Positions 18,062 through 42,277 of a stretch of DNA of 64,000 bases are shown piece by piece. Under the pieces are notes generated by a model. The model was given only the letters and a program-made list of their open reading frames with translations, made no database searches and was not told the DNA's origin. Origin of the DNA: Pedobacter polaris (GTDB lineage: Bacteria > Bacteroidota > Bacteroidia > Sphingobacteriales > Sphingobacteriaceae); NCBI RefSeq assembly GCF_005116505.1, contig NZ_SWBR01000004.1, positions 62,001-126,000 on the forward strand, written 5' to 3'. Each line of letters starts with the position of its first letter. Position 1 is the first letter of the stretch. Position numbers and translations under genes: made by a program.

Positions 18062-18256
18062 TGCGTTGAGCTATTAAAAAAAACGCTTAAAATCATTCGA
18101 TTGAACAATCTAACCGAAAAATTAATCAGTCTGGAGCGTTAGATGTGACCGGCTGTTGGGGAAATCCTTACGCTCAGCAAGTGAACGTAATCATTTAATT
18201 TAAAGTGACTCTGTTTCGCAGGAAAGAACAAAGGCTGGAATTAGACCTATAAAAAA

Positions 18257-18283
18257 GCGGGAAAAACCATTGGCCCTTCCCGC
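18257..18283 (-). terminator. intrinsic terminator for the 18.4 kb minus-strand gene
   Basis: AGCGGGAA and TTCCCGCT pair around an 11-nt loop, and T6 follows when read on the minus strand. It lies 80 bp past the stop of the hypothetical gene at 18363-18656. The remaining 300 bp between the MBL gene and this gene holds no recognisable gene. Confidence 0.7.
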
Positions 18284-18362
18284 TCATCTAAATTAACGCT
18301 CTCGAATATTAAACACATTCTTTAGCAAAATGTTTTATCCGAAAAATAATATATTGATAGAC

Positions 18363-18656
18363 CTAGCTCGCCTTTAGAATCAGAAATGCAATCAAGTGCT
18401 CTTCGAGCAGTTCGGCATTATAGGTTCCTTCGGATGTATGGTCCGAAAGCTCAAGGCTATCATCACTAACGATAATCGTGTAAGCATTGCCCTCGATGAC
18501 TTCAGGAAAGCTGATATTTACAAAATCGGATACATGTGCAAATTCGACCGCCAGGTTGCTTCCAAGCCGCTCATTAACATACGAAGGAAACTCAGTCTTT
18601 AAAATATCGGTCAATTGCGTTGCGTCCAAGGGTTGGACATTGTTAATAGTAATCAT
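18363..18656 (-). CDS. hypothetical protein
   Basis: A 97-residue protein starting at the second in-frame ATG (MITINNVQPLDATQLTDILK). A GGGA run eight bases upstream and the weak look of the preceding residues favour this over the ATG at 18668 or a TTG at 18740. It is acidic, apparently soluble alpha/beta, with no motif I recognise. It stands alone at the edge of the accessory region, with its own terminator about 80 bp downstream. Function unknown. Confidence 0.55.
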   Translation of the reverse strand: MITINNVQPLDATQLTDILKTEFPSYVNERLGSNLAVEFAHVSDFVNISFPEVIEGNAYTIIVSDDSLELSDHTSEGTYNAELLEEHLIAFLILKAS

Positions 18657-18888
18657 ATGTTTTCCCATAAGCTTCCAATAATGGTGCCCCGATTGAATGG
18701 CAACCACATTGCGCCAGGGAGCGATAATTCTTAGTGCCAATCAAATAGTGTCCGATTTCGACAACAATCAGCCATAAGATAATTAGGGTTTATTAAACTA
18801 ACCTGCCAAAAACCATGAAAAGGAAATTTTTTTCAGTGCTTAAGCCTAGCGTAGTTGAAGTTAAATTCGTCCGATAAGCATTGAAACT

Positions 18889-18918
18889 AAAAAAACTTCC
18901 CATATAGGAAGTTTTTTT
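18889..18918. terminator. bidirectional hairpin terminator in gene-free DNA
   Basis: AAAAAAACTTCC and GGAAGTTTTTTT flank the 6-nt loop CATATA. It has A7 on one side and T7 on the other, so it can work in both directions. It is the only structure I see in 18741-19100 and does not follow an intact gene. Confidence 0.65.
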
Positions 18919-19100
18919 AAATCTATGATAAAAGTTAACGAATTTTAAGTCTTCTAAGGCCGTAGATACCTTTAGAAGATTAGCTTAGCACAAAAAAATT
19001 GGCAATATGCCTGTAAGTACCCTTGCATTTAAAAGCATATAATTTGAGAGGGAAAAATATATCTAAACAATTATTATCTCAATAAATAAGTTCGGCATGG

Positions 19101-19164
19101 ACTATTTAGAATAAATATTTGACCTTAAAAGAACATCTACACGTTTAAAAGAGTTATACCTTTG
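19101..19164 (+). promoter_or_regulatory. araC-type gene promoter with paired operator-like repeats
   Basis: A perfect -7 box TACCTTTG lies at 19157-19164 with no normal -33 box. Upstream, ACTATTTAGAAT (19101-19112) and CCTTAAAAGAA (19123-19133) are degenerate copies 22 bp apart. The second lies 34 bp before the -7 box. The same spacings occur before the NTF2-like gene (20152-20215), where the copies are near-identical CTAATTAGA words. This suggests the AraC protein binds both promoters, overlapping the -33 position. Confidence 0.5.
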
Positions 19165-19240
19165 TTTTAATCGATGCTATATAATTACGAATCAAGTACC
19201 GTCGATTGTTTAATGTCGTATTACATCAAAAAATAAGTAA

Positions 19241-20101
19241 ATGAAAAAAATGATTAAAGTTCCAACTTCTTTAATTGGTTGTGATGCGCCGCAAAATGCT
19301 TTGATGTTGGATGGTTGCTCTGTAATTGAACAGTGCATACACAGTACGGAAGTTAAAGGAACAATGTACCTCGAACAGCATTTACTCCTCATCGTCCTAG
19401 AAGGTTCAGTAATTCTTACTTATGGAAAACAGGAATATAAGCTTTGTAAGAACGATATGATTTTACTTAAGAAAGCCACTGCTGTAAAATATCATAAATT
19501 CGGAAATCCTGAAAATGATAATATTTATGACAGTTTAATGTTCAGCATAAAAGATGATCTCCTGAAATCATTCTTATCTACCTCAGAAATTAAAATATCA
19601 AAACCTGAAGGAGAGATAAAAACAGGCGTTTATCCCATGAACGAATGTCTGGTTGCATTTGCTCAATCTTTAAAGCCATATTTTTTTGATGATTCTGTGG
19701 TTCATCCTGGACAGCTTCGTATAAAAATCATGGAATTATTGTATGATGTTGCGGAATGCAATCGAAATATGTTTTTACAGATCCTTCAGCTACATGAGCC
19801 TGTAAGGACTGATATCCGCAACGTGGTTGAACAACATTATGCATCTCCGGTATCGGTTTCAGAATTGGCATACCTCTCTGGCAGAAGTTTGTCAAGTTTT
19901 AAAAGAGATTTTCAAAATATCTACAATATTGCACCTGCAACATGGATAAGAGAAAAGAGATTAGAAAAAGCAAAAGAAATGCTGGAAACAACTATAATGT
20001 CTGTTTCTGATGTATGTTACTCCTTAGGATTTGAAAATGTATCCCACTTTTCAAGAATATACAAGGAATTTCACGGACAGGCACCAAGTGTCTCTCGTTA
20101 A
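19241..20101 (+). CDS. AraC-family transcriptional regulator
   Basis: The 286-residue protein has an N-terminal cupin-like sensory region (GSVILTYGKQEYKLCKNDMILL, about 55-75) and a C-terminal pair of helix-turn-helices from about 190 (SVSELAYLSGRSLSSFKRDF, then the recognition region of HTH2 DVCYSLGFENVSHFSRIYKE). The N-terminal half resembles ExsA-like and YesN-like effector domains more than sugar-binding AraC itself. It precedes an NTF2-like gene and an OYE reductase on the same strand. Repeat pairs before its own promoter and that of the next gene make these the likely targets. Confidence 0.9.
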   Translation: MKKMIKVPTSLIGCDAPQNALMLDGCSVIEQCIHSTEVKGTMYLEQHLLLIVLEGSVILTYGKQEYKLCKNDMILLKKATAVKYHKFGNPENDNIYDSLMFSIKDDLLKSFLSTSEIKISKPEGEIKTGVYPMNECLVAFAQSLKPYFFDDSVVHPGQLRIKIMELLYDVAECNRNMFLQILQLHEPVRTDIRNVVEQHYASPVSVSELAYLSGRSLSSFKRDFQNIYNIAPATWIREKRLEKAKEMLETTIMSVSDVCYSLGFENVSHFSRIYKEFHGQAPSVSR

Positions 20102-20151
20102 TAGGTAATCTAATAGCATCTTTCATCGTTCCTTTAAGCCATCAAAAAAGG

Positions 20152-20215
20152 ACTAATTAGACAAAATCTTTGAGCTAATTAGAAAAGCCATCGAATTCTC
20201 GTCATTGTACCTTTG
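20152..20215 (+). promoter_or_regulatory. promoter of the NTF2-like gene with two CTAATTAGA operators
   Basis: CTAATTAGA occurs at 20153-20161 and again at 20175-20183, exactly 22 bp apart, both within longer similar words (GACTAATTAGACAAAA and GAGCTAATTAGAAAAG). A perfect -7 box TACCTTTG follows at 20208-20215. The second operator covers the place of the -33 box, a layout typical of activator-dependent promoters. Confidence 0.6.
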
Positions 20216-20288
20216 TTATAGAAAAGAGTTAATAATTCTGTCATTAATAAGCAGTGTATTAGTCTCATTAATAACAAATTAAAACAAG

Positions 20289-20855
20289 ATGATTATGCAA
20301 AACAATCACGGCCAAAAAGGCGCTATCTCTCACTCTGCAGACGTAAAAATTAATGGATTACGAGAAAGTAGTAGAAATATAGCAAAAAAAGTGTTTCCCT
20401 CAGTACAAACGGTATTATTACTATCAGCCTTAACTTTTGGAAGCTTATTAATTTCATGTCAAAATAGTAATAATCAAAATAATAAAAAAGAAGTTATGCA
20501 AAACAATCAAGAACAAAAAGATGGCATCCTGAAAGCAATAGATTTATATGTTGAAGCAGGAAGAAAAGGCGACGGTAATATTGCAAAACCAGCATTTGCG
20601 TCAACTGCAACAATGTCATGGTCAGAAAATGGAGAATTGAAGAGTGTTCCTATCCAAGTACTAATCGATGGATTTTCGGCTTTAGAGCCAATGGAAGCGA
20701 GTTATAAACTCACTACTTTGGATGTAGAAGGTGATGCTGCAATAGTGAGAATTGAATCGCAATTTGGATCCGACAAATATGCCGATATGTTTACTTTGGT
20801 AAAAGATGGTAGCGATTGGAAAATCATTAGTAAAATTTATCAGGTAACAAAATAG
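20289..20855 (+). CDS. NTF2-like / putative lumazine-binding-type protein with added lipoprotein leader
   Basis: The 188-residue product has a C-terminal NTF2-like domain (about 75-187: ILKAIDLYVEAGRKGD, then VIRIESQFG-like strands, FTLVKDGSDWKIISKIYQ). It is preceded by an unusual front: residues 41-57 (TVLLLSALTFGSLLISC) look like a lipoprotein signal ending at Cys57, but about 40 residues lie before it. MQNNHGQKGAI at residues 3-13 is nearly repeated as MQNNQEQKDGI at about 70-80, where a cytosolic version could start (ATG at 20496). NTF2-like proteins of this type are small ligand-binding or enzymatic folds. It lies under the CTAATTAGA promoter, between araC-type and OYE genes. Confidence 0.7.
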   Translation: MIMQNNHGQKGAISHSADVKINGLRESSRNIAKKVFPSVQTVLLLSALTFGSLLISCQNSNNQNNKKEVMQNNQEQKDGILKAIDLYVEAGRKGDGNIAKPAFASTATMSWSENGELKSVPIQVLIDGFSALEPMEASYKLTTLDVEGDAAIVRIESQFGSDKYADMFTLVKDGSDWKIISKIYQVTK

Positions 20856-20859
20856 AAAT

Positions 20860-21027
20860 TTGGCTCAGCACCAAATATCAAAATACAAAACACCCACTAT
20901 AGCAATTGTCCAAGTTGAAATGGGGGATGATGCTACAGATGAAGATTCCACCTATTTCCATTCATTGATCAAAATTAATGGAGAACGGAAAGTTGTTGCT
21001 GAACTTTTTCATCTGTACACTAAATAA
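20860..21027 (+). pseudogene. remnant of a second NTF2-like gene (C-terminal part)
   Basis: An open stretch with no ATG near its beginning reads TPTIAIVQVEMGDDATDE, then YFHSLIKINGERKVVAELFH, then LYTK and stop. This is the typical tail of an NTF2-like/lumazine-binding-type protein (strand, L-x-K-x-N-G-x-x-K-V-V-x-x-x-F-H). The N-terminal two thirds are absent. It starts four bases after the intact NTF2-like gene and probably derives from a tandem duplicate or a lost related gene. Confidence 0.6.
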
Positions 21028-21052
21028 TCAAAAATCATTAGGTTGAAGTTTT

Positions 21053-21080
21053 TACTAGGAGCATAATATTGCTTCTAGTA
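21053..21080. promoter_or_regulatory. 28-bp imperfect palindrome upstream of the OYE gene
   Basis: TACTAGGAGCA and TGCTTCTAGTA pair around TAATAT with a single mismatch. It lies 27 bp before the OYE start codon. It could be an operator or an RNA hairpin; no T-tract follows, so a terminator is unlikely. Confidence 0.45.
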
Positions 21081-21106
21081 GAGCTTTGCGTTTAAAAAAC
21101 TTATAA

Positions 21107-22270
21107 ATGAATAAATACAATAAGCTATTTACTCCCTTATCATTTGATAATGGGATTAGTTTAAAAAACAGAATTGTAATGTCGCCTATGACCACTTGGG
21201 CATCAAATGACGATTTTACTATATCAGATGAAGAAATCGAATATTATAAAAAAAGAGTAAATGGTGTAGGATTGGTTATCACAGGATGTACACATGTTAC
21301 TGCAAATGGTATCGGTTTTACACATGAATTTGCAGGATACGATGATAAGTTTCTTCCAAGTCTTAAGAAGCTGGCAAATGCAACTAAAAGTGGTGGGGCG
21401 CCAGCAATATTACAGCTATTTCATGCAGGCAATAAAGCAATTCCAGGTCTTATTCCTAATGGCGAAGTGGTAAGTTCAAGCGCTGTTTTGAGTGGAACCA
21501 TACTACTATCCGATAAAGAAAATCTTCCAAAAGAATTAAGCGAAAATGAAATTTTAGAAATGATCAAAGCATTTGGAGAAACTACGAGAAGAGCGATTGA
21601 AGCTGGTTTTGATGGAGTTGAAATTCATGGAGCCCATGGATTTTTGCTTCAAAATTTTATATCTCCCTTTTTTAATAAAAGAAATGATCAGTGGGGAGGT
21701 TCTCTTGAAAATCGCTTAAGACTTAGCCTCGAAATCGTAAAAGAGGTGAAAAAAGTAGTCTCTGAATATGCTAATACTCCATTTCTTATAGGCTATAGAA
21801 TCTCACCTGAAGAAATGCCGCAACAAACCTATGGACTTCCAGACACGTTCACGCTAATAGACAAGTTGATTGCTGAGAAGATTGATTATTTACACTTTTC
21901 TTTGTTTGATGCTGTCAATCAAAAACCAATTGACTTACAACATTCAGAAGAGCCTATATCAGTTGTACTAAACAATTATGTTAACAACAGAGTTCCTGTT
22001 CTTGTTGCTGGAGGAATTACAACGCCACAGATGGCTAATCAGGTTTTAGAGTATGGTGTTTCTATGGTGGCAATAGGGAAAACTTTGATAATTAATCCTG
22101 ATTGGGTAGAATTAATTCAAAATGGAGAAGAAGAAAAAATCACTTCAATTCTTAAACTTGATACAGTAGAAGACAAAAAAATTCCAGCGAAATTAATGAC
22201 GATATTTGAAACACTAAAAGGCTGGTTACCAATGGAAGGCGAAGAGAACAGGATAGCCAAAGGTGCTTAG
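21107..22270 (+). CDS. NADH:flavin oxidoreductase, old yellow enzyme family
   Basis: The 387-residue FMN-dependent TIM barrel opens with KLFTPLSFDNGISLKNRIVM and SPMTTW, then has the EIHGAHGFLLQNFISPFFNK segment (H-G-A-H with active-site residues) and N-D-x-W-G-G-S-x-E-N-R, ending with the VAGGITTP and MVAIGKTLIINPDW phosphate-binding strands. It belongs to the YqjM/XenA-like class of ene-reductases that reduce activated alkenes such as enones. The physiological substrate is unknown. It is downstream of the araC-type and NTF2-like genes and may share their regulation. Confidence 0.93.
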   Translation: MNKYNKLFTPLSFDNGISLKNRIVMSPMTTWASNDDFTISDEEIEYYKKRVNGVGLVITGCTHVTANGIGFTHEFAGYDDKFLPSLKKLANATKSGGAPAILQLFHAGNKAIPGLIPNGEVVSSSAVLSGTILLSDKENLPKELSENEILEMIKAFGETTRRAIEAGFDGVEIHGAHGFLLQNFISPFFNKRNDQWGGSLENRLRLSLEIVKEVKKVVSEYANTPFLIGYRISPEEMPQQTYGLPDTFTLIDKLIAEKIDYLHFSLFDAVNQKPIDLQHSEEPISVVLNNYVNNRVPVLVAGGITTPQMANQVLEYGVSMVAIGKTLIINPDWVELIQNGEEEKITSILKLDTVEDKKIPAKLMTIFETLKGWLPMEGEENRIAKGA

Positions 22271-22400
22271 ATTGCGATAAAAAATAGGTTAGACCAATGA
22301 AAATAGCATATATAATTTATAACGGAGCGCTTAAATATTCATCAGACTGCTGAGCGTTCAAAGCTAATCTTCTAATCCCCCTTTACCAGACTGAACCATT

Positions 22401-22516
22401 AGCAGGAATACTTTGAACAAGGCTGGAATAGCTTAGAACAGTGATTTTAAATAAAAAAACCGGACTTTTAAGAGTTCAAAGTCCGGTTGTACCGATCAGC
22501 AGGAATACTTTGAACA
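22401..22516. repeat. 19-bp direct repeat, two copies 97 bp apart
   Basis: AGCAGGAATACTTTGAACA occurs at 22401-22419 and again at 22498-22516. In the second copy it encodes the Q-E-Y-F-E part of a coding-like remnant. The first copy is followed by AGGCTGGAAT, a word also present near 18.2 kb. The copies bracket a strong hairpin, so this may be a small duplication left by an insertion and excision event. Confidence 0.65.
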
Positions 22517-22583
22517 TTTAAATCGCTTTTTATTGCTTATTGAGCCTATTATCGAAGATTTGGAGAGAAAAGGTTTCATATAA
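22455..22583 (+). pseudogene. coding-like C-terminal remnant, unidentified
   Basis: In one frame the sequence reads TDQQEYFEHLNRFLLLIEP, then IIEDLERKGFI and stop: a helical, well-formed C-terminus with normal codon use. No start codon or upstream domain remains, because a stop and an A-rich hairpin precede it. The family is not recognised. It indicates that a gene was lost between the OYE gene and the methyltransferase. Confidence 0.4.
22458..22488 (-). terminator. strong hairpin with T7 on the minus strand
   Basis: AACCGGACTTT pairs perfectly with AAAGTCCGGTT (11 bp) around a 9-nt loop. Read leftward, T7 follows, as in a classical intrinsic terminator. There is no minus-strand gene ending here, so it is either an orphan or a shield for the upstream OYE cluster. 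The rest of 22271-22770 shows no intact gene. Confidence 0.6.
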
Positions 22584-22770
22584 AATGCATGTTAAAATTT
22601 AACCGATTTTGATAAGGTATACCTTGACCAGATTATAATAGAACAAAAAATTTGCACATTTAATAGGACCCAGTTTTGTACTTTTTACTGGTAGGAATAG
22701 GTAGAAAAACATGGCGAAAATTGGATTCAGCACCAAGAATTTGTAATTTGATATTCGAAACTTAGACATT

Positions 22771-23502
22771 ATGGATGTTCAGATGCGCCTATATTGGGAG
22801 TCTTATTCAGAAGACTTTACAACCGATGATTTAATTCGGACATTACATAATCCACTGAGGGATTATGAAAGCGATTTTGTCGATGGTGCTATTGTCGATA
22901 TCGGTTGCGGCCAAACCACTTTTCTTTTTGAATATATCAATTCAGGCAGAAAGTTGATTGGTATCGATAATGACCAATATCAACTTGACTCTCTAAAAAA
23001 CAGGATAAATAGTCTGGCCCACGAGGGTGTAAATATTGAATTGTACAACCTAACTTTGTTACGCAATAGTTTACCAAAAGAAACCTACTCGGTAGTTTTT
23101 CTGGCAAACATATTACACTTTTTCAATCTACAACAGTGCAATAAAATACTAGGCCAAGTGAAGGAAAATTTGGCAATAGGGTCATTCGTTTATGTTTGGA
23201 CACATTCCGATAAATATTATATGAATAATCCGGGCAACTCTGAGAACAATGAGTACTTTAAGCATTATTTTACATTGGCCGACCTAGATAGTCTATTTAT
23301 CCCATTAGGTTTTAAAAGACTTATGCATTCAGAAAAAGAACGTCTTTTTTCTGAAAAAGAAATGCAAACGCAAAAGAAGTGGCTAGAAAAGTACCTTGAC
23401 CATCTCGAAATATTTGATAAGCAAGAACGGGCATCTATTATTAAAGAAAATTGGAAAAATAATCCAGAGGCGGATATAATGTGCATTTATAAGTTACCGT
23501 AA
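22771..23502 (+). CDS. class I SAM-dependent methyltransferase
   Basis: The 243-residue protein has the Rossmann methyltransferase signature: motif I AIVDIGCGQTTFLFEY (about 40-56), motif II acidic end of strand 2 LIGIDNDQYQL, motif IV-like SVVFLANILHFF, and motif VI VKENLAIGSFVYV. The arrangement resembles Methyltransf_25-type small-molecule or TehB-like enzymes; there is no DNA-methyltransferase N/D-P-P-Y motif. It precedes the nuclease operon by 71 bp on the same strand and could belong to it, but the gap is larger than the other gaps in the operon. The substrate is unknown. Confidence 0.85.
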   Translation: MDVQMRLYWESYSEDFTTDDLIRTLHNPLRDYESDFVDGAIVDIGCGQTTFLFEYINSGRKLIGIDNDQYQLDSLKNRINSLAHEGVNIELYNLTLLRNSLPKETYSVVFLANILHFFNLQQCNKILGQVKENLAIGSFVYVWTHSDKYYMNNPGNSENNEYFKHYFTLADLDSLFIPLGFKRLMHSEKERLFSEKEMQTQKKWLEKYLDHLEIFDKQERASIIKENWKNNPEADIMCIYKLP

Positions 23503-23573
23503 TTTATAAGTTGATCAGTAGAAGTTTTTTTTGAATTCTAACTATCAAGAGGAGTAGATAAAACTCAACGAAT

Positions 23574-25769
23574 ATGGGAAATGACGAAAGTATTAAGAAT
23601 GTTGACTTACAAAACGATTTGTCTAATGTGTGGCCGAAAAAAATTGAGGAACATTGGATAACATTAGAAAATGAGATACCCAAATTCAACACCTTTCAAC
23701 TTTTAGCGAACATAACACATTACAATCATTTACATAAGGTTGATGATTATACAGATATTAGAGAGGATCGAATGCTTGTCATCCCCGAAATTGTTTCGTT
23801 ATTCGCACTAAGAAGCAATTTCGTTAGAGATCGTCAATTAGACGAAAAAGATTATTTACAAGCTCTAAGAAATATTCAAGATGCTGCTACGGGCTATTTG
23901 ATGCTGACAAGGGTAATTCAATTACATGAGAATAACAAAACATCACAGACTACATTAACTAAGATCACCAACAAATTGATGGAGGATGAAATGCTGGTTA
24001 GAAACCCAGGACATCCGGAGCATCACAAATTATTTGTTGGCAAACTTTATTCCTCCTTGTCGGATGATTTAAAAAAACACTTTGGATTTGATATTCAAGA
24101 TAGCCTGATATTGAGGGACAAAATTGTACAACTTGTGAACGAGCGGTACATTAAAAAAGTGGAAGTTGCTAAGCTGCAGAAGGAGACCTTACGAGATGAA
24201 ATAGTAAAATTTCGGAACACTAAACAGAGGAATGCAGAATCTACGCTTCTTAACGATCAAATATTATATTTCTCTTCTTTGAAATCCAAACAGCTCAACA
24301 AGGCACTAGACTATCACTTGCTAAATAAAATAACATACCAGCTAGAAGATATACATGTGTTTTCTCCAGAGGAACTTGCTGATTACTGTAATCTCACTAT
24401 TGAGGTTACGAGCTCTTTTTTAGAACAATTTTCTGTTACATTCCCAACAGAAGGAATAAGTCAAATAGTAGCACCTGATAGTATTCTAAGAAGGAGACCT
24501 ATTCTTCAGAATGAAGACAAATTTATGGTCGCATCCTTGTCATTATTGGGATGGTGTGTAGAACCTACTTTTGAAAACTATATTAACTCAATGCCTAAAT
24601 TGGCTGCTAAGTACAAAGATAAGAAGCATGATTTTTTACTCGATGAGGGTATGTCAATGTTTTCTGGGTTGCTGGCTTCAGCGATAATACATCCAAAAAA
24701 TTTATACTATACAACCGAAAATGGAGATGTTTGCGAAACTGATGGACTTATCACATACGACAGAACACTATTCATTATTGAAGCGAAGGGTCATCGTCTC
24801 AGTCAAAAAGCAAAAAATGGAAACTATGAGAGGACTGAGAAGCATCTTAAACAGTTAATCAGAGATTCTACTGAACAGGGCATTAGAACAAAGAAATTTA
24901 TTGAAACATCTAGTATTGCAACTTTCCGGACATCAAACGGAGAAATTACCACAATAGATTCTAATGATTATGACGAATATATCATCGTGAGCTTGACTTT
25001 AGAGCCAATAGGACATCTTACACCCTTAGTAAAAGTTGGAAATGATCTTGGATATTTTGAGAAAGATGTATTTCCCTGGATCATTAGCATTTACGATTTA
25101 ATAGTAATTAGAGATTTTATATCTCATCCAATACTTCTACTTCACTATTTGAAGCGGAGAAAAAGTTTTTTACTTCATGAAAGTATTCACATTTACGAGG
25201 AAACAGATATGCTTGCATATTTTTTATCTAATGGTCTTTATTTTGATAATACAATAAGCAAGATGGAAAAAGTAGGTTCAAATTGGCTAAGTTTCGAAAA
25301 TAATACGGATATTTTTAATGACTATTACATGTATACTTTCGGCAAAAGTTCAAAGTTAAGGACTAAGCCAAAATTCTACCTACCTGATGAATTCATGGAT
25401 TTGATCATGGCAATAGACTGCTCAAAAATTCAACATAAAAATATTATGCTGCTGGAAGCCTTGTCAATATCTCCATCGGCTTCAAGAACGCTAATGGATT
25501 ATATCCGTAAAGTTCGAGAACAGTATTACAAAGATGGACAGATACATGATTGCAGTATTTTGACTAATGACGGCAAGCTTGGGATTACTTATATGGCTGG
25601 ACCTGATCGTGGCGAATTGGATATGTCAATTTACACCTATTGTCGTTACAAATATGATAATATGAAACCCAATACTTGGATTGGTTTTGGTGATGTTTCA
25701 CCTAGTGTGACTGGCTATAACATTATGTGTGCTATCATAATTAAAGATGAATTACCAAAACCTTATTGA
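23574..25769 (+). CDS. large PD-(D/E)XK nuclease-like protein
   Basis: A 731-residue protein without signal peptide or membrane segment. Residues 1-340 are helix-rich. At 387-406 is CETDGLITYDRTLFIIEAKG, the arrangement E/D-x-D-G then E-x-K (E388, D390, E403, K405) of the PD-(D/E)XK nuclease fold. It is followed by a basic helical stretch (LSQKAKNGNYERTEKHLKQL) seen in NERD-like or restriction-type members. The C-terminal 300 residues are unassigned. It heads a tight run: the PIN/SEC-C gene starts 15 bp after it and a transglutaminase-like gene follows. The exact family is not recognised. A nucleic-acid-cutting role in defence or DNA metabolism is inference. Confidence 0.7.
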   Translation: MGNDESIKNVDLQNDLSNVWPKKIEEHWITLENEIPKFNTFQLLANITHYNHLHKVDDYTDIREDRMLVIPEIVSLFALRSNFVRDRQLDEKDYLQALRNIQDAATGYLMLTRVIQLHENNKTSQTTLTKITNKLMEDEMLVRNPGHPEHHKLFVGKLYSSLSDDLKKHFGFDIQDSLILRDKIVQLVNERYIKKVEVAKLQKETLRDEIVKFRNTKQRNAESTLLNDQILYFSSLKSKQLNKALDYHLLNKITYQLEDIHVFSPEELADYCNLTIEVTSSFLEQFSVTFPTEGISQIVAPDSILRRRPILQNEDKFMVASLSLLGWCVEPTFENYINSMPKLAAKYKDKKHDFLLDEGMSMFSGLLASAIIHPKNLYYTTENGDVCETDGLITYDRTLFIIEAKGHRLSQKAKNGNYERTEKHLKQLIRDSTEQGIRTKKFIETSSIATFRTSNGEITTIDSNDYDEYIIVSLTLEPIGHLTPLVKVGNDLGYFEKDVFPWIISIYDLIVIRDFISHPILLLHYLKRRKSFLLHESIHIYEETDMLAYFLSNGLYFDNTISKMEKVGSNWLSFENNTDIFNDYYMYTFGKSSKLRTKPKFYLPDEFMDLIMAIDCSKIQHKNIMLLEALSISPSASRTLMDYIRKVREQYYKDGQIHDCSILTNDGKLGITYMAGPDRGELDMSIYTYCRYKYDNMKPNTWIGFGDVSPSVTGYNIMCAIIIKDELPKPY

Positions 25770-25784
25770 AATAATTGAGAATAT

Positions 25785-27083
25785 ATGGCATTGAATATTA
25801 TTATAGACAAATCTACTTTTCAGTCACTCTCATACAATGAGTTGTTAAGATTGACTTATTATTACAAACACAATATCACTCCAATATTGGTCATGGAAAT
25901 TCTAGGCGACCTTAAAAAAGAAGCCAAAGATGGCAATCCACCATCTCAAAATAGAGTTATCGACTTCGCTACAAAACTTTTCCCTAGTAGTACAATTGTT
26001 AATGAGCCCTATTTCAATGCCATTACCTCAGAATTGAGTTTGGATAGGCCAATAGAAATGGATGGTCGACCTATGGTAAACATTGGTAAAGCAGTTCAAA
26101 CCAAAGATGGGGCTAAAGGCTGGGTTGTTGGACAAACGCCAGAAGAAAATGCTGTTTACCAATGGCGAGATGGAAAATTTACCGAGGCAGACTTGGCGCT
26201 GTCCGAACTTTGGAGAAATACAACTACTCAAGAAGATATCCTGATCAATCTTAAAAAGCAACTTCAAGAAGTTGGCGAGAAAATCAAACTAAAAAATTTT
26301 GAGGAATTGGCCAATTATGTCCAAGATAGTATTGATGACCCTAAAAACCAGCAGTTATTGTTAATGGATTTATGTCGATCCTCAAAGATAAATGTGTTTA
26401 CATCTATGAGACTTCTAAAATATTGGCAATCTAAAGGGCGACCCCTTATAAAAAACATCTTTCCTTACGCTTATCATATACTGAAAGTAAATACATTGTT
26501 CCACGTAGGACTTAAATGCGGCTTGATCAGCACTAGGCCTACAAATAAGGTTGATCTCGAGTATCTTTATTACCTTCCATTTTGCAATATTTTTACATCT
26601 AACGACCATTTGCATGTTAACTTGGCTCCATTGCTTTTAAGGGAGGATCAAGTATTTATAAAAGGTGTTGATTTGAAAGCTGATTTATCTACCATCAATG
26701 AAAAATTAGAAAAGTTAGGCGAAGAAGAAAAGGGAAAATACAAAAAAGCTCCTCCCATTGAGCCTAATTCCTTTACATTTAACATGTATAATAAGTTTTT
26801 TGACTATCCCGACGGTTTCCAATGGAGAATTCCATCCAAACCTTTACCAAAAGAAGAGCTTATTAGAAAAATGGAGGAATTTATCTCTGCGGCGGATGGG
26901 AAACCTATTGACCTGAAACATGGTGATGACGGTGAGTTTGTTGTTCGTAAATCCTACATAAGTAAAAAAGATCCTTGTATGTGCGGGAGTGGCAAATTAG
27001 TTATTGAATGTTGCATGACTGAACAACAATTCGATGATGCTGCTAGACAACAAGCAACAAAACGAACCGACAACGCCAATTAA
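25785..27083 (+). CDS. PIN-like domain protein with C-terminal SEC-C zinc motif
   Basis: This 432-residue protein begins NIIIDKSTFQSLSYNELL (D8), followed by PILVMEILGDLKKE (E38). Far downstream is DLEYLYYLPFCNIFTSNDHL (D257, D274). Together these are the scattered acidic pattern of PIN-like RNases with an insertion. The end holds a SEC-C/YecA zinc motif at 398-410: C-M-C-GSGKLVIE-C-C (C-x-C-x8-C-C). SEC-C motifs occur in SecA and in many nucleic-acid or protein-binding partners. The PIN call is by pattern only. It sits between the nuclease-like and transglutaminase-like genes with gaps of 15 and 28 bp, so all three are probably co-expressed. Confidence 0.65.
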   Translation: MALNIIIDKSTFQSLSYNELLRLTYYYKHNITPILVMEILGDLKKEAKDGNPPSQNRVIDFATKLFPSSTIVNEPYFNAITSELSLDRPIEMDGRPMVNIGKAVQTKDGAKGWVVGQTPEENAVYQWRDGKFTEADLALSELWRNTTTQEDILINLKKQLQEVGEKIKLKNFEELANYVQDSIDDPKNQQLLLMDLCRSSKINVFTSMRLLKYWQSKGRPLIKNIFPYAYHILKVNTLFHVGLKCGLISTRPTNKVDLEYLYYLPFCNIFTSNDHLHVNLAPLLLREDQVFIKGVDLKADLSTINEKLEKLGEEEKGKYKKAPPIEPNSFTFNMYNKFFDYPDGFQWRIPSKPLPKEELIRKMEEFISAADGKPIDLKHGDDGEFVVRKSYISKKDPCMCGSGKLVIECCMTEQQFDDAARQQATKRTDNAN

Positions 27084-27111
27084 TAAATGATTTGGGATAA
27101 TTTACAATAAA

Positions 27112-27675
27112 ATGGAGAGAGTTTTAGAATTGAAATCAGTATTGCTTGACAATTACACTATAAATGAAGTAGAAAGATTTTTGTCATATCAACTGACTGT
27201 ACAAGAGCGAAATTTAATTCTAGAGACGTTGGAAGCTGCTTTAATTAATGTCCCAAATAAAGCATTCGCTTGTACTCAAATTTCTGCTGCCTGGGCAGCA
27301 ATGATCCAAGATCATTCAAGAATTCCAGTTGCAGTTGTATGTGGAGACTTGGCATATCGTGACACAAAATTATTTGTATGCCACTCACCTATACCAATTT
27401 TAACAACAGATGAAATCTTTATCCAAGAGTGGGATGGCCATTGTTGGTTAGAACTTGGTGGGATGATTGCGGATGCCTCAATCTTTAGAACAATCTATCA
27501 AGGACGGGTTTCTAAAACAATTAAGAATCAGATTATAGAGCAATTTGGAGAAGGCAAAGGCGCATTAATTGCCACTCCCGAGCAAATGTCAATCAATAAT
27601 TTCACATATTCACCAAAATATACTTTGAATGATATTCAGATAAATGGAATTTTAAGGGGATTATTACAAGGTTAA
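27112..27675 (+). CDS. transglutaminase-like / papain-fold protein
   Basis: The 187-residue protein shows a Cys-His-Asp order typical of the transglutaminase-like fold. C54 is in AFACTQISAAWAAMI at the start of a helix, H110 in DGHCWLELGG, and D121 in MIADASIF, with the hydrophobic strand RIPVAVVCGDL between them. It is close in layout to the leader peptidases of lasso peptides and to bacterial transglutaminase-like proteases, though much of it is unique. There is no signal peptide, so it acts in the cytoplasm. It is the last gene of the nuclease-PIN operon, and palindromes then a broken mobile-element gene follow. Confidence 0.6.
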   Translation: MERVLELKSVLLDNYTINEVERFLSYQLTVQERNLILETLEAALINVPNKAFACTQISAAWAAMIQDHSRIPVAVVCGDLAYRDTKLFVCHSPIPILTTDEIFIQEWDGHCWLELGGMIADASIFRTIYQGRVSKTIKNQIIEQFGEGKGALIATPEQMSINNFTYSPKYTLNDIQINGILRGLLQG

Positions 27676-27682
27676 TCCACTT

Positions 27683-27749
27683 TATGCCCGCAAGGGCCGC
27701 CCGAAATTTTGGGCATAGCAAAGCACTAAGAACAACCTGCTCTTAGTGC
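27683..27749. repeat. two adjacent palindromes after the accessory operon
   Basis: TATGCCC (27683-27689) pairs with GGGCATA (27711-27717), and GCACTAAGA (27723-27731) pairs with TCTTAGTGC (27741-27749). They lie between the operon and the DUF932 remnant. They could be terminators or a remnant of a mobile-element transfer or recombination site; neither has a long T-tract. Confidence 0.5.
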
Positions 27750-27770
27750 CTAATTTGCATATTAAGACGC

Positions 27771-28108
27771 TTAATTCAGTACATTTACACCAATCCTCGC
27801 AAAATCATTGCACAAATCAAACGTAGCCTGTGCCCTACCTAGCGCACCACCCGACATGATTGAATTGAATTTGCTTCATCGGTCTTGTAGTTCTTCACGT
27901 TCTGAAAATAGCCCGTCACACTGTTGTACGTTCCGAACAAAGTGCCTTTGGTGGTTTCCATCTGCTGTGTCGGACTGCTTTCTGAATACTTTAAAACCTT
28001 ATCCACTACATTATTGAATACACTAGAAAATTCATCTATTTCGCCCTCGATGATGTTTTCTAATGTTTCATTGTTGGTGCCATTGCATTTATTGTGCTTT
28101 AAAAGTGT
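27771..28108 (-). pseudogene. DUF932 (phage/plasmid-like) protein, C-terminal part with frameshift
   Basis: Minus-strand translation gives NETLENIIEGEIDEF, then TTKGTLFGTYNSVTGYFQNV, then KNYKTDEA. A one-base deletion near 27868-27873 then shifts the frame, after which KFNSIMSGGALGRAQATFDL, then CNDFARIGVNVLN and stop continue. This is the C-terminus of the DUF932/phage-plasmid-like family carried by conjugative elements and phages. The N-terminal two thirds are missing. It marks decayed mobile DNA next to a tRNA gene. Confidence 0.75.
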
Positions 28109-28183
28109 TCAATTAACTTAAACTAAATATTTAACTAACACTATATCTCTAACTTCATTTATCATTAAAGCCAGGCTATTCAA

Positions 28184-28393
28184 ATGAATCCTCCAAAAAG
28201 AAGAGCCAAAAGAATCCCAAATCACCCAGGAAATGAGGATATGATTGTTCATGAGGACGAGAAGCCTTTCTTAAATCTGGTCGCTCGACTTGCCGTGGAA
28301 GTCTTTTTTAAAGATGTGCTTGATATAGAAGAAGAGCAAATTACAACTACTAAAAATCGTCCGTCGACAAGTCGAAATAAAAATGTATTTTAG
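28184..28393 (+). CDS. small hypothetical protein
   Basis: A possible 69-residue product: a basic start (NPPKRRAKRIPNHPGNEDM), an acidic middle with a helix (PFLNLVARLAVEVFFKDVLD) and a basic tail. It looks like the short accessory proteins of integrated elements, but I recognise no family. It lies between the DUF932 remnant and tRNA-Leu. The remaining DNA to 28620 is AT-rich and shows nothing else. Confidence 0.4.
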   Translation: MNPPKRRAKRIPNHPGNEDMIVHEDEKPFLNLVARLAVEVFFKDVLDIEEEQITTTKNRPSTSRNKNVF

Positions 28394-28622
28394 TAGGGAC
28401 AAGCAGACGCTGTTTGAACAACTGAATATCAAGTAGTTACGCGTAAGACACTTAATATCAACAATTTACAAACTCAATTCTAGAACATTACAATATAAAT
28501 AAATTTCTGATTATCAACTAATTACAAATATTATATTTTCGTGTTCAAAGATAAAATTTCATAAAAAAACGAATGCAAATACCTGATAATTAGATAGTTA
28601 CATTCGTAAATTTTACATCCGG

Positions 28623-28706
28623 TACCCAAGAGGAGATTCGAACTCCCACACCCATACAGGCGCCAGCCCCTCAAGCTGGTGCGTCTACCAATTCCGCCAC
28701 CTAGGT
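28623..28706 (-). tRNA. tRNA-Leu (anticodon GAG)
   Basis: The minus-strand sequence from 28706 folds as a class II tRNA: acceptor ACCTAGG with CTTGGGT, a D-arm with GGTAGACGC, anticodon stem CCAGC/GCTGG around the loop TTGAGGG (anticodon GAG), a long variable arm, and T-loop GTTCGAATC. The 84-nt length suits leucine. CCA is not encoded. It bounds the accessory region on its right side, and tRNA genes are frequent integration sites. Confidence 0.92.
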
Positions 28707-37403: not shown

Positions 37404-38147
37404 ATGATTTCAAGTGGCGAGCTTCAGGAAATTCAGTTTCAGAGGGCAAATATTGTTTCTGATAAATATCCATTTAGCCTTCCTTTTTTAAAGGATTTAA
37501 ATAAGCTGAAAATACATCCTCAAGTAACTTTCTTTGTTGGGGAAAATGGAATGGGTAAGTCTACATTAATAGAAGCAATTGCAGTAGCCTCTGGGTTTAA
37601 TGCTGAGGGTGGAACAAAAAATTTCAATTTCAATACAAGACCATCACATTCAGATCTCCATCAGTACATTCGAACATCTAGGGGTACAAGACGTCATACA
37701 GATGGATTTTTCTTAAGAAGTGAAAGCTTCTTTAACCTAGCTACAGAGATTGAGCAATTAGATGAATCTGAAGGCGGTGATTTAATTATTAATTCATACG
37801 GGGGTAAATCTTTGCATGAGCAATCTCATGGTGAATCTTTTTGGGCCTTGTTTATGAACAGATTTCGAGGAAATGGATTTTATATTCTTGATGAACCTGA
37901 AGCTGCGCTTTCACCAACCAGACAGATGGCAATGCTCTGCAAAATGCATGAGTTGATAGATTCTGGCTCGCAGTTTATTATCGCTACACACTCTCCAATA
38001 CTTATTGCCTATCCTGGGTCAATTGTTTATGAGTTTAGTCAAGATGGTATAGCCATCAAAAACTATAAAGAAACCGAGCTTTTTAGGTCATATGCTAATT
38101 TTATTCAAGACAGTGATAACCATGTGCGTTATTTACTGAGTGAATGA
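37404..38147 (+). CDS. AAA/ABC-type ATPase, single domain
   Basis: The 247 residues show Walker A FFVGENGMGKST, a signature-like HEQSHGESFWALF, Walker B FYILDEPEAALSP and the H-switch IIATHSPIL. Proteins of this size and form are common stand-alone ABC-ATPase-like or RecF-like proteins of unknown role. No partner gene with a nuclease or TOPRIM domain lies next to it. It stands alone between the DeoR gene and gene-poor DNA. Confidence 0.85.
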   Translation: MISSGELQEIQFQRANIVSDKYPFSLPFLKDLNKLKIHPQVTFFVGENGMGKSTLIEAIAVASGFNAEGGTKNFNFNTRPSHSDLHQYIRTSRGTRRHTDGFFLRSESFFNLATEIEQLDESEGGDLIINSYGGKSLHEQSHGESFWALFMNRFRGNGFYILDEPEAALSPTRQMAMLCKMHELIDSGSQFIIATHSPILIAYPGSIVYEFSQDGIAIKNYKETELFRSYANFIQDSDNHVRYLLSE

Positions 38148-38648: not shown

Positions 38649-39464
38649 ATGGACTTATTGCACACCATTTTGGGTGATGACCCACAAGCAGGTATCTTAA
38701 TTATTTTAAACCTTATCGTAATAGAAAGTCTTTTGTCGGTTGATAACGCTGCTGTTCTTGCTACAATGGTGATGGATTTGCCTAAACACCAAAGAGACAA
38801 GGCCCTAAAATATGGAATTATTGGTGCTTATGTTTTTAGAGGTATTTGTCTACTCTTAGCGGCTTGGTTAGTTACGATATGGTGGTTAAAACCTCTCGGT
38901 GGAATTTATTTACTGTATTTAGCATTTGATTATTTCAAAAAACGGAATGCGAAAAATAATAATGAAGAAGAAGTAGTTGATAAAAATAAAAGTTGGATTT
39001 ATAGATCTACTGTAGGATTAATGGGCACTTTCTGGGCTACTGTGGCTTTAGTAGAAGTTATGGATCTTGCATTCTCAATAGATAATGTTTTTGCAGCTGT
39101 GGCTTTTACAGATAACATTTACCTTATTTACATTGGTGTTTTTATAGGTATTTTAGCAATGCGTTTTGTAGCCCAAGCCTTTGTGAAACTTATGGAAAAG
39201 TTTTCATTTTTAGAAACCGTTGCCTTTATTGTAATTGCTGTGCTCGGATTAAAATTAACTTCATCGATATTCACCCATTTTTATCCAACATCGCCAATTT
39301 CCGAAATAATTGAAGGAGAAAAAACGGATCTTTTTGTTTCTATCTTTACAGTTGTAATTTTTATTTTGCCAGTTATAACTTCAATATTATTTAACTACCC
39401 AAAGAAAAAAATACACGATACTATTATTGCTGATGAAGCCGAAGAAGTAGTTGATAAATTTTAG
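38649..39464 (+). CDS. TerC-family membrane protein
   Basis: The 271-residue membrane protein has about seven hydrophobic segments and the TerC hallmark acidic residues within membrane helices: LNLIVIESLLSVDNAAVLAT near the N-terminus and VALVEVMDLAFSIDNVFAAV in the middle (the E-x-x-L-S-x-D-N pattern twice). TerC proteins are linked to tellurite resistance and manganese export. It begins the ter-type gene run but is 90 bp from the next gene. Confidence 0.95.
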   Translation: MDLLHTILGDDPQAGILIILNLIVIESLLSVDNAAVLATMVMDLPKHQRDKALKYGIIGAYVFRGICLLLAAWLVTIWWLKPLGGIYLLYLAFDYFKKRNAKNNNEEEVVDKNKSWIYRSTVGLMGTFWATVALVEVMDLAFSIDNVFAAVAFTDNIYLIYIGVFIGILAMRFVAQAFVKLMEKFSFLETVAFIVIAVLGLKLTSSIFTHFYPTSPISEIIEGEKTDLFVSIFTVVIFILPVITSILFNYPKKKIHDTIIADEAEEVVDKF

Positions 39465-39554
39465 TTTATGCCATGATGTATATGAAATATTTCTAATTAA
39501 TTCTTTCAGTTGTAAATAAAATTAATACTACATATTAGGATAATAACTAACTAA

Positions 39555-40250
39555 ATGGCTTTTTATAAACACTATTCATTCGATCTTTGGTTAACATTGA
39601 TTAAATCAAATCCAAAATTTAAGCAAGAACGAACGCTTTATTTTTATGAGCATTTTAATCTTCAAAATAAAAGTATTAATGAAGTTGCCACTATTTTTAG
39701 ACAGGTAGATTTAATGATAAATGCTATTAATGAAAAGACAGGTAAAAATGTTGATGCTGATGAAATGTATTTAATGGTAATTAGTCTTATCAATGATTAT
39801 CAGTTTCCATTACAAGAGGTTAATTTAGAAATTCTTTACCAACAAATGGAAGAACTGTTGCTAGCTAATATGCCAATATTATATTGTGAGGATTCTATAG
39901 ACGTGTTATCAACATTAAAGAATCAAAATAAAAGCTCCATAAATATTTTAAGCAATACTGGTTTTATTAAAGGTAAAACATTGAGAAAAGTATTAGCCCA
40001 TTTAAATATTGATCAGTATATTGACTTTCAATTGTACTCTGATGAAGTACGTATGTCTAAACCGAATAATAATTTTTTTCAGCTGATGCTAGATTCAATT
40101 GATAAGAATATACATCCAGAATTAAAGCTAAATGAAGTTATTCATGTTGGCGATAACCCTTTGGCAGATGTAGGTGGTGCAGAAGCAGTCGGAATTAAAA
40201 GTATGCTAATTAACTCTAACCATCTATCCATTTCACACTTGCTTTCATGA
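39555..40250 (+). CDS. HAD-superfamily hydrolase of the ter operon
   Basis: The 231 residues show a HAD core: motif I-like SFDLWLTLIKSNP (D, then L-x-x-T), motif II SINILSNTGFIKG, and motif III/IV EVIHVGDNPLADVGGAEAVG. HAD proteins are known members of the biosynthetic module of ter-type stress operons together with PRTases. It overlaps the PRTase gene by four bases. Confidence 0.88.
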   Translation: MAFYKHYSFDLWLTLIKSNPKFKQERTLYFYEHFNLQNKSINEVATIFRQVDLMINAINEKTGKNVDADEMYLMVISLINDYQFPLQEVNLEILYQQMEELLLANMPILYCEDSIDVLSTLKNQNKSSINILSNTGFIKGKTLRKVLAHLNIDQYIDFQLYSDEVRMSKPNNNFFQLMLDSIDKNIHPELKLNEVIHVGDNPLADVGGAEAVGIKSMLINSNHLSISHLLS

Positions 40251-41083
40251 TCCCATATACATATTCACTGCATAAAATAGACAATTCAACTAATTTTGGG
40301 TTTGATCCAAACGCTTATAGTCGTTTTAAGTTTGGAGATGATTTGGCCGCTAGACTATTCGGGACTTCCTTAGCCGATGGTTTTATTAAATACTACTTGT
40401 CAGAAAATATCATCAATGAACAGATTGTGGTAATTTCTAGCCCTTATAGTTTTATTCCAACGGCTACTTTTGCTATGAAAAACCATTTTGTAAGCCAATT
40501 AAATCGTTGGCTTGTAGAGCATGGACATCATTCTATTGAGGAAACAAAAGTGCACCGGACCATTACTTATAAGGAAGATTATGGCGAGCTTAGTGCAGAA
40601 GAGCGAATGAACTTGATAGGGAATGATTCATTCCACATTGATAAAGACTTTTTAAAGGGAAAAACATTACTATTTCTAGATGATATAAGAATTACAGGAA
40701 GTCATGAAAGGATGATCCTTAAAATGGCCAAGGAATACGGATTAGACAATGAAATTTACATGTTGTATTTTGCAGAACTCATCAATAAGAATATTCACCC
40801 GAGCATTGAGAACTTTTTGAACTATCATGAAGTAAAATCTATTTTTGATTTGGAGGAAATTATTGATAATGGTCATTTTTGCTTCAATACACGAATAGTA
40901 AAATACATCTTAAATACTGATTCAAATAGTTTTGTAATCTTTTTAGAGCGTAGAAATAATGAATTCATAAATAAACTTTACGATTTATCTTTAGGTAATA
41001 ACTATCATACCATTGAAGCATACGTAGAAAACTTATATTTGATAAAAAATTATATTAAAAACAATAATTATAAATTAATTTAA
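40247..41083 (+). CDS. phosphoribosyltransferase-like protein of the ter operon
   Basis: The 278 residues contain the PRPP-binding loop as KTLLFLDDIRITGSHERM (hydrophobic strand, D-D, then T-G-S-H) and an upstream VVISSPYSFIPTATFAMKNH segment. PRTases fused or adjacent to HAD and TerD genes form the proposed metabolite-synthesis part of ter systems (comparative-genomics literature on ter-dependent stress response). The product is unknown. TerD follows after 1 bp. Confidence 0.8.
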   Translation: MIPYTYSLHKIDNSTNFGFDPNAYSRFKFGDDLAARLFGTSLADGFIKYYLSENIINEQIVVISSPYSFIPTATFAMKNHFVSQLNRWLVEHGHHSIEETKVHRTITYKEDYGELSAEERMNLIGNDSFHIDKDFLKGKTLLFLDDIRITGSHERMILKMAKEYGLDNEIYMLYFAELINKNIHPSIENFLNYHEVKSIFDLEEIIDNGHFCFNTRIVKYILNTDSNSFVIFLERRNNEFINKLYDLSLGNNYHTIEAYVENLYLIKNYIKNNNYKLI

Positions 41084-41084
41084 A

Positions 41085-41639
41085 ATGGCTATTAATTTAC
41101 AAAAGGGACAAAGAGAAAATATCGACGCTCCAAAATTCACTATAGGTTTGGGATGGGATACGAATAGTTCTTCTACAGGTACAGCTTTCGATTTAGATGC
41201 TTCTATTTTCATTTTAAACGATCAAAAGAAATTAGTTTCAGATGAAAATTTTATATTCTACAACAACTTAATTTCTCCTGATGGGGCTGTTGAACATACT
41301 GGTGATAATTTAACTGGTGATGGTGATGGCGATGATGAGCAGATCAAGGTAGATCTAACTAAAGCAGACAGCAAAGTAAACGAAATCTGTGTGGTGGTTA
41401 CCATCCATGATGCCGAAAATAGAAGACAAAACTTTGGTCAAGTAAGAAATTCTTTTGTGCGCATTTTTGATGCAGTAACAAATGAAGTAATTCTTAAGTA
41501 TGAGTTAGAAGAAGACTTTTCTATTGAAACAGCTGTCGAGTTCGGAAGAATCTACAAACGTGATGGAAAATGGAAATTTGAAGCAGTAGGCATGGGTATG
41601 AAAGGCGGCTTACAAGATTATTTAAACAAATATCAATAA
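41085..41639 (+). CDS. TerD-family protein 1
   Basis: The 184-residue protein has the TerD fold signature: MAINLQKGQRENIDAPKF, TIGLGWDTNSSSTGTAFDLD with D-L-D-A-S, and the calcium-binding loop EHTGDNLTGDGDGDDEQIKV, then VVTIHDAENRRQNFGQVRNS. TerD domains bind Ca2+ and are cytoplasmic or membrane-associated. It is followed three bases later by a paralogue. Confidence 0.95.
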   Translation: MAINLQKGQRENIDAPKFTIGLGWDTNSSSTGTAFDLDASIFILNDQKKLVSDENFIFYNNLISPDGAVEHTGDNLTGDGDGDDEQIKVDLTKADSKVNEICVVVTIHDAENRRQNFGQVRNSFVRIFDAVTNEVILKYELEEDFSIETAVEFGRIYKRDGKWKFEAVGMGMKGGLQDYLNKYQ

Positions 41640-41642
41640 AAT

Positions 41643-42257
41643 ATGGCAATCAATCTTCAAAAAGGACAACGCATTAGTCTAGAAAAAAGCAATGGCAGTA
41701 AACTACAAAATATTTGTGTAGGTATTAACTGGGGCGCAATAGAAAAAAAGGGCTTATTCGGTTTTAGTAAATCTAAGGAAGCAGTAGATTTAGACGCTAG
41801 TTGTGCCTTATATACTGAAACAAAGCAGCTATCGGAAGTTATTTATTTCGGCAACCTAAAATCTAAAAATGGATCAGTAGCACACAGTGGTGATGATTTA
41901 ACTGGAGATATGGGTGGAGATGATGGTTTGGACAATGAAATTATTACTCTTGATTTTTCTAAGCTTGATGCAAGTGTAAACTATGTTGCTTTTGTATTAA
42001 ACAGTTTTAGAGGACATGATTTTGGCACTATCCCTTTTGCTTCTATACGTATTTATGAAGGAACTAATAAACGTGTAAATGAAGTTTTTGCAACTTATGA
42101 TATCGCAAATGGATCTAATTTTGCTGGTCATGTTTCTATGGTAATGGGTGTTTTTTACAAGAAAAATGACGAATGGAAATTCAATGCTATTGGAGAACCA
42201 ACAAAAGATAAAAAACTAGAAGATACTGTTAAAACTGTAACTCAACACTATTTATAA
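41643..42257 (+). CDS. TerD-family protein 2
   Basis: The 204 residues repeat the TerD pattern: MAINLQKGQRISLEKSNGSK, then EAVDLDASCALYTETKQL and AHSGDDLTGDMGGDDGLDNE with the Ca2+-binding acidic loop, then FVLNSFRGHDFGTIPFASIR. It is longer than the first copy by an insert near residues 35-45 (KKGLFGFSKSKEA). The two probably arose by duplication. Confidence 0.95.
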   Translation: MAINLQKGQRISLEKSNGSKLQNICVGINWGAIEKKGLFGFSKSKEAVDLDASCALYTETKQLSEVIYFGNLKSKNGSVAHSGDDLTGDMGGDDGLDNEIITLDFSKLDASVNYVAFVLNSFRGHDFGTIPFASIRIYEGTNKRVNEVFATYDIANGSNFAGHVSMVMGVFYKKNDEWKFNAIGEPTKDKKLEDTVKTVTQHYL

Positions 42258-42277
42258 CCAAATCGGTCACACTCAAT

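Follow-up and report, generated by a model that had tools for sequence, protein, structure and literature searches.

A tRNA-Leu-integrated island of Pedobacter polaris with two predicted nucleases and a transglutaminase-like protein, a possible cassette of interchangeable anti-phage parts

The window analysed here is a stretch of 64,000 nucleotides of the Pedobacter polaris contig NZ_SWBR01000004.1, and all coordinates are positions in it. An island at the 3′ end of a tRNA-Leu(gag) gene carries three genes on the forward strand, which code for a predicted NERD/PD-(D/E)XK-family nuclease of 731 amino acids (P0001, 23574-25769), a PIN-like protein of 432 amino acids with a C-terminal SEC-C motif (P0002, 25785-27083) and a transglutaminase/papain-like protein of 187 amino acids (P0003, 27112-27675). 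A first-pass annotation of this DNA had described three same-strand genes, separated by 15 and 28 bp and situated beside a tRNA and among broken genes. The coordinates of the open reading frames (ORFs) agree with these gaps, none of the three contains an internal stop, and the common strand together with the short distances suggests that they lie on one transcript. The tRNA is the tRNA-Leu(gag) gene at 28621-28706 on the reverse strand, the integration target, and the broken gene nearby is a DUF932-type remnant (27872-28075, reverse strand). The earlier description lacked a methyltransferase gene in the same island (22771-23502, forward strand) and the exact island borders.

The island comprises 6,133 bp (22494-28626; GC content 0.348) and contains the methyltransferase gene, P0001 to P0003 and the DUF932 remnant. 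Its borders were defined by empty sites in relatives and not by a repeat search. In one relative (G026, locus L076) the tRNA-Leu(gag) 3′ end is fused directly to the counterpart of window positions 22356-22493, and in a second (G006, L078) it lies within 34 bp of the counterpart sequence. The tRNA 3′ end and the left-flank sequence are 6.13 kb apart in the window, whereas they adjoin in G026. At the left junction, AAAGTCCGGTTGTACC is followed by GATCAG in the window and by CGAGAGCAGATTCGAAC at the empty site, where the same AAAGTCCGGTTGTACC precedes it. Comparison of the junction with a relative revealed a putative attachment (att) core, GTACC, with a left copy at 22489-22493 and a right copy at 28622-28626 within the tRNA 3′ end; a 20-mer of the 3′ part of the tRNA, used as att-repeat probe within the window, matched the tRNA itself alone. 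The left border is marked by the hairpin CCGGACTTT-N9-AAAGTCCGG (22460-22486). The same hairpin stands directly behind the tRNA-Leu(gag) 3′ end in L076 and, by its position, is likely to be the terminator of this tRNA. The island is horizontally acquired and integrated in tRNA-Leu; no integrase was seen among its ORFs. Because the gene of a YhcG PDDEXK nuclease adjoins this tRNA-Leu(gag) in G026, the site evidently accepts varied cargo.

The Pfam NERD model (PF08378) fell short of its cut-off with P0001 (E 0.019) and matched 9 of the 13 members of the P0001 family, the best with 1.2e-7. In an alignment of 13 relatives D390, K405 and Q435 never vary, position 403 holds either E or Q, and position 388 is variable. 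As judged from this alignment, the catalytic-type core of P0001 (D390, E403-x-K405, Q435) follows the D-(E/Q)xK-Q pattern of NERD/Mrr-like nucleases. The PD-(D/E)XK-like motif of the first-pass annotation is thus retained for D390, E403 and K405, while E388, which had been counted as well, was rejected as a motif residue. A SEC-C motif is fused to the C-terminus in 4 of the 13 relatives. The relatives on plasmids, which come from several phyla, bear the annotations NERD, SEC-C or SecA, the last of which is probably due to the SEC-C motif. Among 149 other related genomes, the sole close orthologue (48% identity) belongs to a genome without P0002 or P0003 (G007). It is accompanied by three genes (L015:3512-7622), one for a CapP-like metallopeptidase with an ImmA/IrrE peptidase domain, one for a PDC-S49-like NTPase and one of 333 aa. 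A P0001 scan of the genome contig collection gave zero matches. The connection of P0001 with defence would consist of the mobility of its relatives and this single defence-like neighbourhood.

P0002 has five acidic residues, D8, E38, D42, D257 and D274, that are invariant in five family members with identities down to 25%. Its predicted structure, like the others built from few sequences, has a pLDDT (predicted local distance difference test) of 74.5 and shows the strand-helix order of PIN domains, with D8 after the first strand, D274 after strand 269-272 and a helical insert of approx. 215 residues between E38 and D257. Pfam gave no match, and PADLOC gave weak matches alone, mostly over the SEC-C tail. 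Residues and model together point to a PIN-like nuclease, in accordance with the PIN-like acidic pattern proposed earlier. The C-x-C-x8-C-C motif reported along with it is likewise present as C398-M-C400-x8-C409-C410 (26976-27014, forward strand), and NCBIfam matches to SEC-C-ending families cover residues 389-411.

No relative of P0002 was detected in the 149 genomes, nor did the single sequence match anything in the viral contig collection; scans of that collection with the P0002 alignment yielded six loci. The closest homologue (50% identity) is encoded on IMGVR_UViG_3300042914_005450 (L056, 4017-15581) in a run of mostly overlapping or abutting genes, hsdM-hsdS-(140 aa)-trypsin-like-PIN-SEC-C-pAgo_II-Aga_Unknown-hsdR. 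Here, the PIN-SEC-C gene is separated by 0 bp from the trypsin-like gene and overlaps by 4 bp with the gene of a long-B prokaryotic Argonaute (pAgo), an arrangement of pAgo, PIN and protease for which we found no published description. A second homologue (36% identity) follows, after 50 bp, an NsnA/GmrSD-like gene and type III Mod and Res genes on IMGVR_UViG_3300048592_001387 (L060, 1879-9278). This contig also carries phage-like genes, and a Fic-domain gene is found nearby, after the PIN-SEC-C run. The SEC-C tail is retained in both homologues and in a third (L033, 37%), which is preceded by a second gene that was judged PIN-like by eye. Four relatives without SEC-C (L057-L059 and L061) stand alone on phage- or plasmid-like contigs. 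One further relative (L034:7671-8936) is split into two ORFs and adjoins a toxin gene identified by eye as YoeB-like.

The Cys-His-Asp triad that the first-pass annotation had seen in P0003 corresponds to C54-H110-D121. C54 and H110 are present in all aligned relatives, and position 121 is D or E save in one frameshifted copy. The AlphaFold2 model, derived from four sequences, is of moderate quality (pLDDT 70, predicted TM score 0.67). Its best structural match in the Protein Data Bank (PDB) was 2hly (E 3.4e-3, prob 0.99), followed by weaker matches to protein glutaminase, pseudomurein endoisopeptidase, arylamine N-acetyltransferases and transglutaminase 2, likewise members of the transglutaminase/papain-like superfamily. 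Triad and modelled fold concur in assigning P0003 to this superfamily.

Two of the 149 genomes encode P0003 homologues, with 60% (G020) and 52% identity (G048), both of which keep C54-H110-D121. A scan of the genome contig collection with the P0003 alignment found three loci in all, and the same scan of the viral contig collection gave no matches. In G020 the gene order is Cap4-like (1091 aa)-Avs2-P0003 homologue with gaps of 20 and 13 bp, the Avs2 gene matching PADLOC at 1.5e-162. In Pedobacter sp. BAL39 (G048, L017:8904-14229) the P0003 homologue is followed by a Cap4 nuclease, a DUF559 nuclease and a SEC-C protein with distances of 51, 42 and −47 bp; the Cap4-nuclease protein (Pfam 9.7e-6) is the only member of the four-gene run with a PADLOC match (LmuA-like). 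The P0003 family occurs in three kinds of gene run: NERD with PIN-SEC-C in the window, Cap4 with Avs2, and Cap4 with DUF559 and SEC-C. At all three Pedobacter loci it belongs to a tight run with two nuclease-bearing partners that are not orthologous, and a SEC-C protein is included at two of the three. Full-length or nearly full-length Cap4 family members occur in 5/149 related genomes. The probability that the two other genomes with P0003 both belong to these five by chance is 9e-4, adjacency not yet counted. An obligatory pairing of Cap4 and P0003 was rejected, as a protease-like gene is missing beside three further Cap4-family genes of Pedobacter. More distant P0003 relatives (24-27% identity) are found on proteobacterial plasmids and in Arcobacter.

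The trio had been put forward as a new three-gene system with conserved order. This proposal did not survive: the orthologues occur separately, close ones of P0001 in 1, of P0002 in 0 and of P0003 in 2 of the 149 genomes, and neither these genomes nor any neighbourhood that was read contain a second locus with even two of the three genes. The P0002 relatives elsewhere are accompanied by neither P0001 nor P0003. The genome sample searched was smaller than 2,000 and the P0002 and P0003 families are rare, so that these co-occurrence negatives rest on few loci. No relatives of the three proteins were found among phage records, profiles of all three families retrieved nothing significant in PDB sequence searches, and PADLOC had no match for P0001 or P0003. 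A named NERD/SEC-C or transglutaminase/PIN system was not found in the literature, most subscription journals lying outside the search. The other parts of the first-pass annotation fared better. Its motif residues are conserved in all three families except for E388, and its domain assignments hold as a NERD nuclease, a PIN topology with weak PIN matches and a transglutaminase-like fold. The defence setting it had proposed is supported by the neighbours of relatives, which include Avs2, a Cap4/LmuA-like nuclease, type I and type III restriction-modification (R-M) genes and pAgo.

Members of the P0002 and P0003 families occur within recognised defence operons. For this reason, an interpretation in terms of modular defence is better supported than before: the locus would be a mobile, tRNA-Leu-integrated cassette of interchangeable anti-phage parts in which a protease-like protein regulates nucleases, rather than a conserved three-gene system. 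We assign this a probability of about one half. In such a cassette the two nucleases would be effectors that stay quiet until infection, the NERD protein P0001 acting on DNA and the PIN-SEC-C protein P0002 on RNA. The cysteine enzyme P0003 would be the control part, most likely freeing a nuclease from inhibition through proteolysis or modification, with restriction or abortive infection as the outcome. The zinc motif SEC-C, contributed here by P0002 and by fusion in some P0001 relatives, is probably a module that binds nucleic acid or a partner. Control of nucleases by a protease-like protein is suggested by the gene composition and by a precedent: Tuck et al. 2025 (PMC12799240) described trypsin- and caspase-like proteases that activate a nuclease proenzyme, the pair having been repeatedly acquired by unrelated systems. 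We infer activation of a nuclease by P0003 from circumstantial support and this precedent in other protein families. A bolder version is rather unlikely in our estimation. It would make the P0003 family a set of undescribed portable transglutaminase-like activators of unrelated nuclease operons, whose fold would be the third among nuclease-activating proteases of bacteria, beside trypsin and caspase, with PIN-SEC-C as the matching interchangeable effector, which has a trypsin-like partner in the R-M/pAgo operon.

Several observations weigh against a cassette of defence parts under protease control. No second locus joins any two of the three genes, and all three proteins stay below the Pfam cut-offs and lack a clear PADLOC match. 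Most P0001 relatives look stand-alone, those inspected appearing as single genes, several of them on mobile DNA. The Foldseek matches of P0002 to the PIN domains of VapC, PAE2754 and SMG6 remain below significance (E approx. 0.5-1.4, prob 0.38-0.69). Pfam gives weak support (0.038) for the trypsin-like gene in L056, whose assignment partly rests on His-Asp-Ser motifs recognised by eye. Rather than a protease, P0003 could be a deamidase, an acyltransferase or an inactive binder, evident nuclease partners were not seen beside its distant relatives on proteobacterial plasmids, and the three Pedobacter Cap4-family genes that lack a protease-like neighbour point in the same direction.

In the main rival, P0002 acts alone and three unrelated cargo genes merely lie side by side. 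P0001 would then be a solo nuclease defence, P0002 a solo PIN defence or toxin and P0003 a leftover or independent enzyme, while the short gaps would reflect ordinary cargo packing. The separate occurrence of the orthologues, the mostly solitary P0001 relatives and the free-standing P0002 relatives without SEC-C all fit this view, and the validation of DS-3, a split-PIN protein that defends alone (PMC13092281), shows that P0002 might act by itself. On the other hand, the spacing of 15 and 28 bp on a common strand suggests a single transcript, the P0003 family is tightly linked to two nuclease-bearing genes at each of the three Pedobacter loci, and a protease-like gene directly adjoins that of the closest P0002 relative. 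We regard independent cargo as a serious possibility, albeit one we lean against.

The classical VapC toxins are PIN proteins, and the island is the remnant of a mobile element; P0002 might accordingly be the toxin of an addiction module that stabilises the island and is neutralised by P0003 or P0001. The degenerate relative near a YoeB-like gene would fit such a toxin-antitoxin role. We consider it improbable, since P0002 with its 432 residues and large insert differs from the small VapC proteins, no small antitoxin-like gene adjoins it or is evident beside its relatives, and several of the latter stand alone. Least credible is a set of ordinary genes for cellular RNA or protein quality control with no part in genetic conflict: the SEC-C motif is also found in SecA and in many proteins with housekeeping roles, and many P0001 relatives are annotated as hypothetical or SecA, but the patchy presence of the trio, its position in a tRNA-integrated island and the Avs2, Cap4, R-M and pAgo neighbours of its relatives argue against it.

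The methyltransferase (243 aa) is a class I S-adenosylmethionine-dependent enzyme of the Methyltransf_25 type (Pfam PF13649, 3.1e-9). Its gene ends 71 bp upstream of the P0001 start and is possibly the first gene of the operon, or it may be co-cargo without a role. No orthologue was present in 89 other genomes, where weak matches had E values of 1.9e-7 or worse and at most 30% identity. A DNA methylase of R-M type is unsupported, as the Pfam matches are to general class I families. DUF932-type genes are common on integrative elements and plasmids; the remnant in the island shares 51% identity over 68 aa with an intact protein in L019 (E 5.6e-19). Between this remnant and the tRNA lies a 69-aa ORF (28184-28393), possibly another decayed island gene. 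A 22-bp direct repeat (22398-22419 and 22495-22516, 95% identical) flanks the left border and the hairpin, and related copies stand close to this site in L076 and also in L077. The orientation of the tRNA-island block is inverted relative to flanking chromosomal genes in the relatives G026 and G006. Genes for an AraC regulator, a lumazine-binding-like protein and an Old Yellow Enzyme-like protein (18062-22355) are missing in both relatives between a conserved metallo-β-lactamase (MBL)-fold gene and the tRNA, which indicates further insertions or rearrangements around the tRNA. Farther away, the window contains a Ter-type cluster of the tellurite/toxic-anion type (38649-43375) with TerC, HAD hydrolase, PRTase_3, two TerD-like and TelA family genes, and a lone gene for an AAA_15/AAA_21-type ATPase of 247 aa (37404-38147).

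If the locus is indeed a cassette of exchangeable defence parts, the P0003 and PIN-SEC-C families, which have no Pfam or PADLOC models, become new search seeds for immune loci, and the swapping of protease folds to switch on nucleases becomes testable in Avs2, Cap4 and R-M operons. Otherwise, it still offers a cleanly delimited case of cargo borne by a tRNA gene in Pedobacter.

Comparison with known systems reveals partial likeness in each case. With VapBC, P0002 shares a predicted PIN topology, VapC being among its weak structural matches, whereas its length, large insert and SEC-C motif set it apart, and no VapB-like or small antitoxin-like ORF is adjacent. Among the DefensePredictor systems (PMC13092281), DS-3 assembles its PIN residues from N- and C-terminal parts and defends alone without need of an antitoxin, and DS-5 combines a PIN protein with a partner. 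P0002 resembles the split PIN of the former and the PIN-partner pairing of the latter by description; in contrast to both it has a SEC-C motif and sits in a multigene cassette. P0002 homologues with SEC-C occur inside or directly behind type I/III R-M operons and long-B pAgo loci (L056, L060), whereas the island of the window is devoid of helicase, DNA methylase and Argonaute genes, its methyltransferase matching general class I families. P0003 homologues share a gene run with Cap4-family (PF14130, LmuA-type) proteins of approx. 1090 aa in two genomes; no such Cap4-family gene was found in the P. polaris genome, and P0001 is NERD-like. Similarly, a P0003 homologue (60%) lies 13 bp behind Avs2 of AVAST type 2 in Pedobacter sp. 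Bi126 (L016/L026), but the island has no STAND (signal transduction ATPase with numerous domains) NTPase. The nuclease-protease pairs of Hachiman, AVAST, Lamassu, DRT and canu loci (PMC12799240) likewise place a predicted nuclease gene beside a protease-like gene, recur with different partners and move between systems. They consist of an MBL-fold nuclease and a trypsin- or caspase-like protease, whereas in the window the nucleases are of NERD and PIN type and the enzyme beside them is transglutaminase-like; Pfam revealed no MBL match in P0001 to P0003 and no trypsin or caspase match in P0003. As it lacks the defining folds, P0003 is not classed with these proteases, although it may work likewise. 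The cassette probably represents a further combination of immune parts whose kinds are known.

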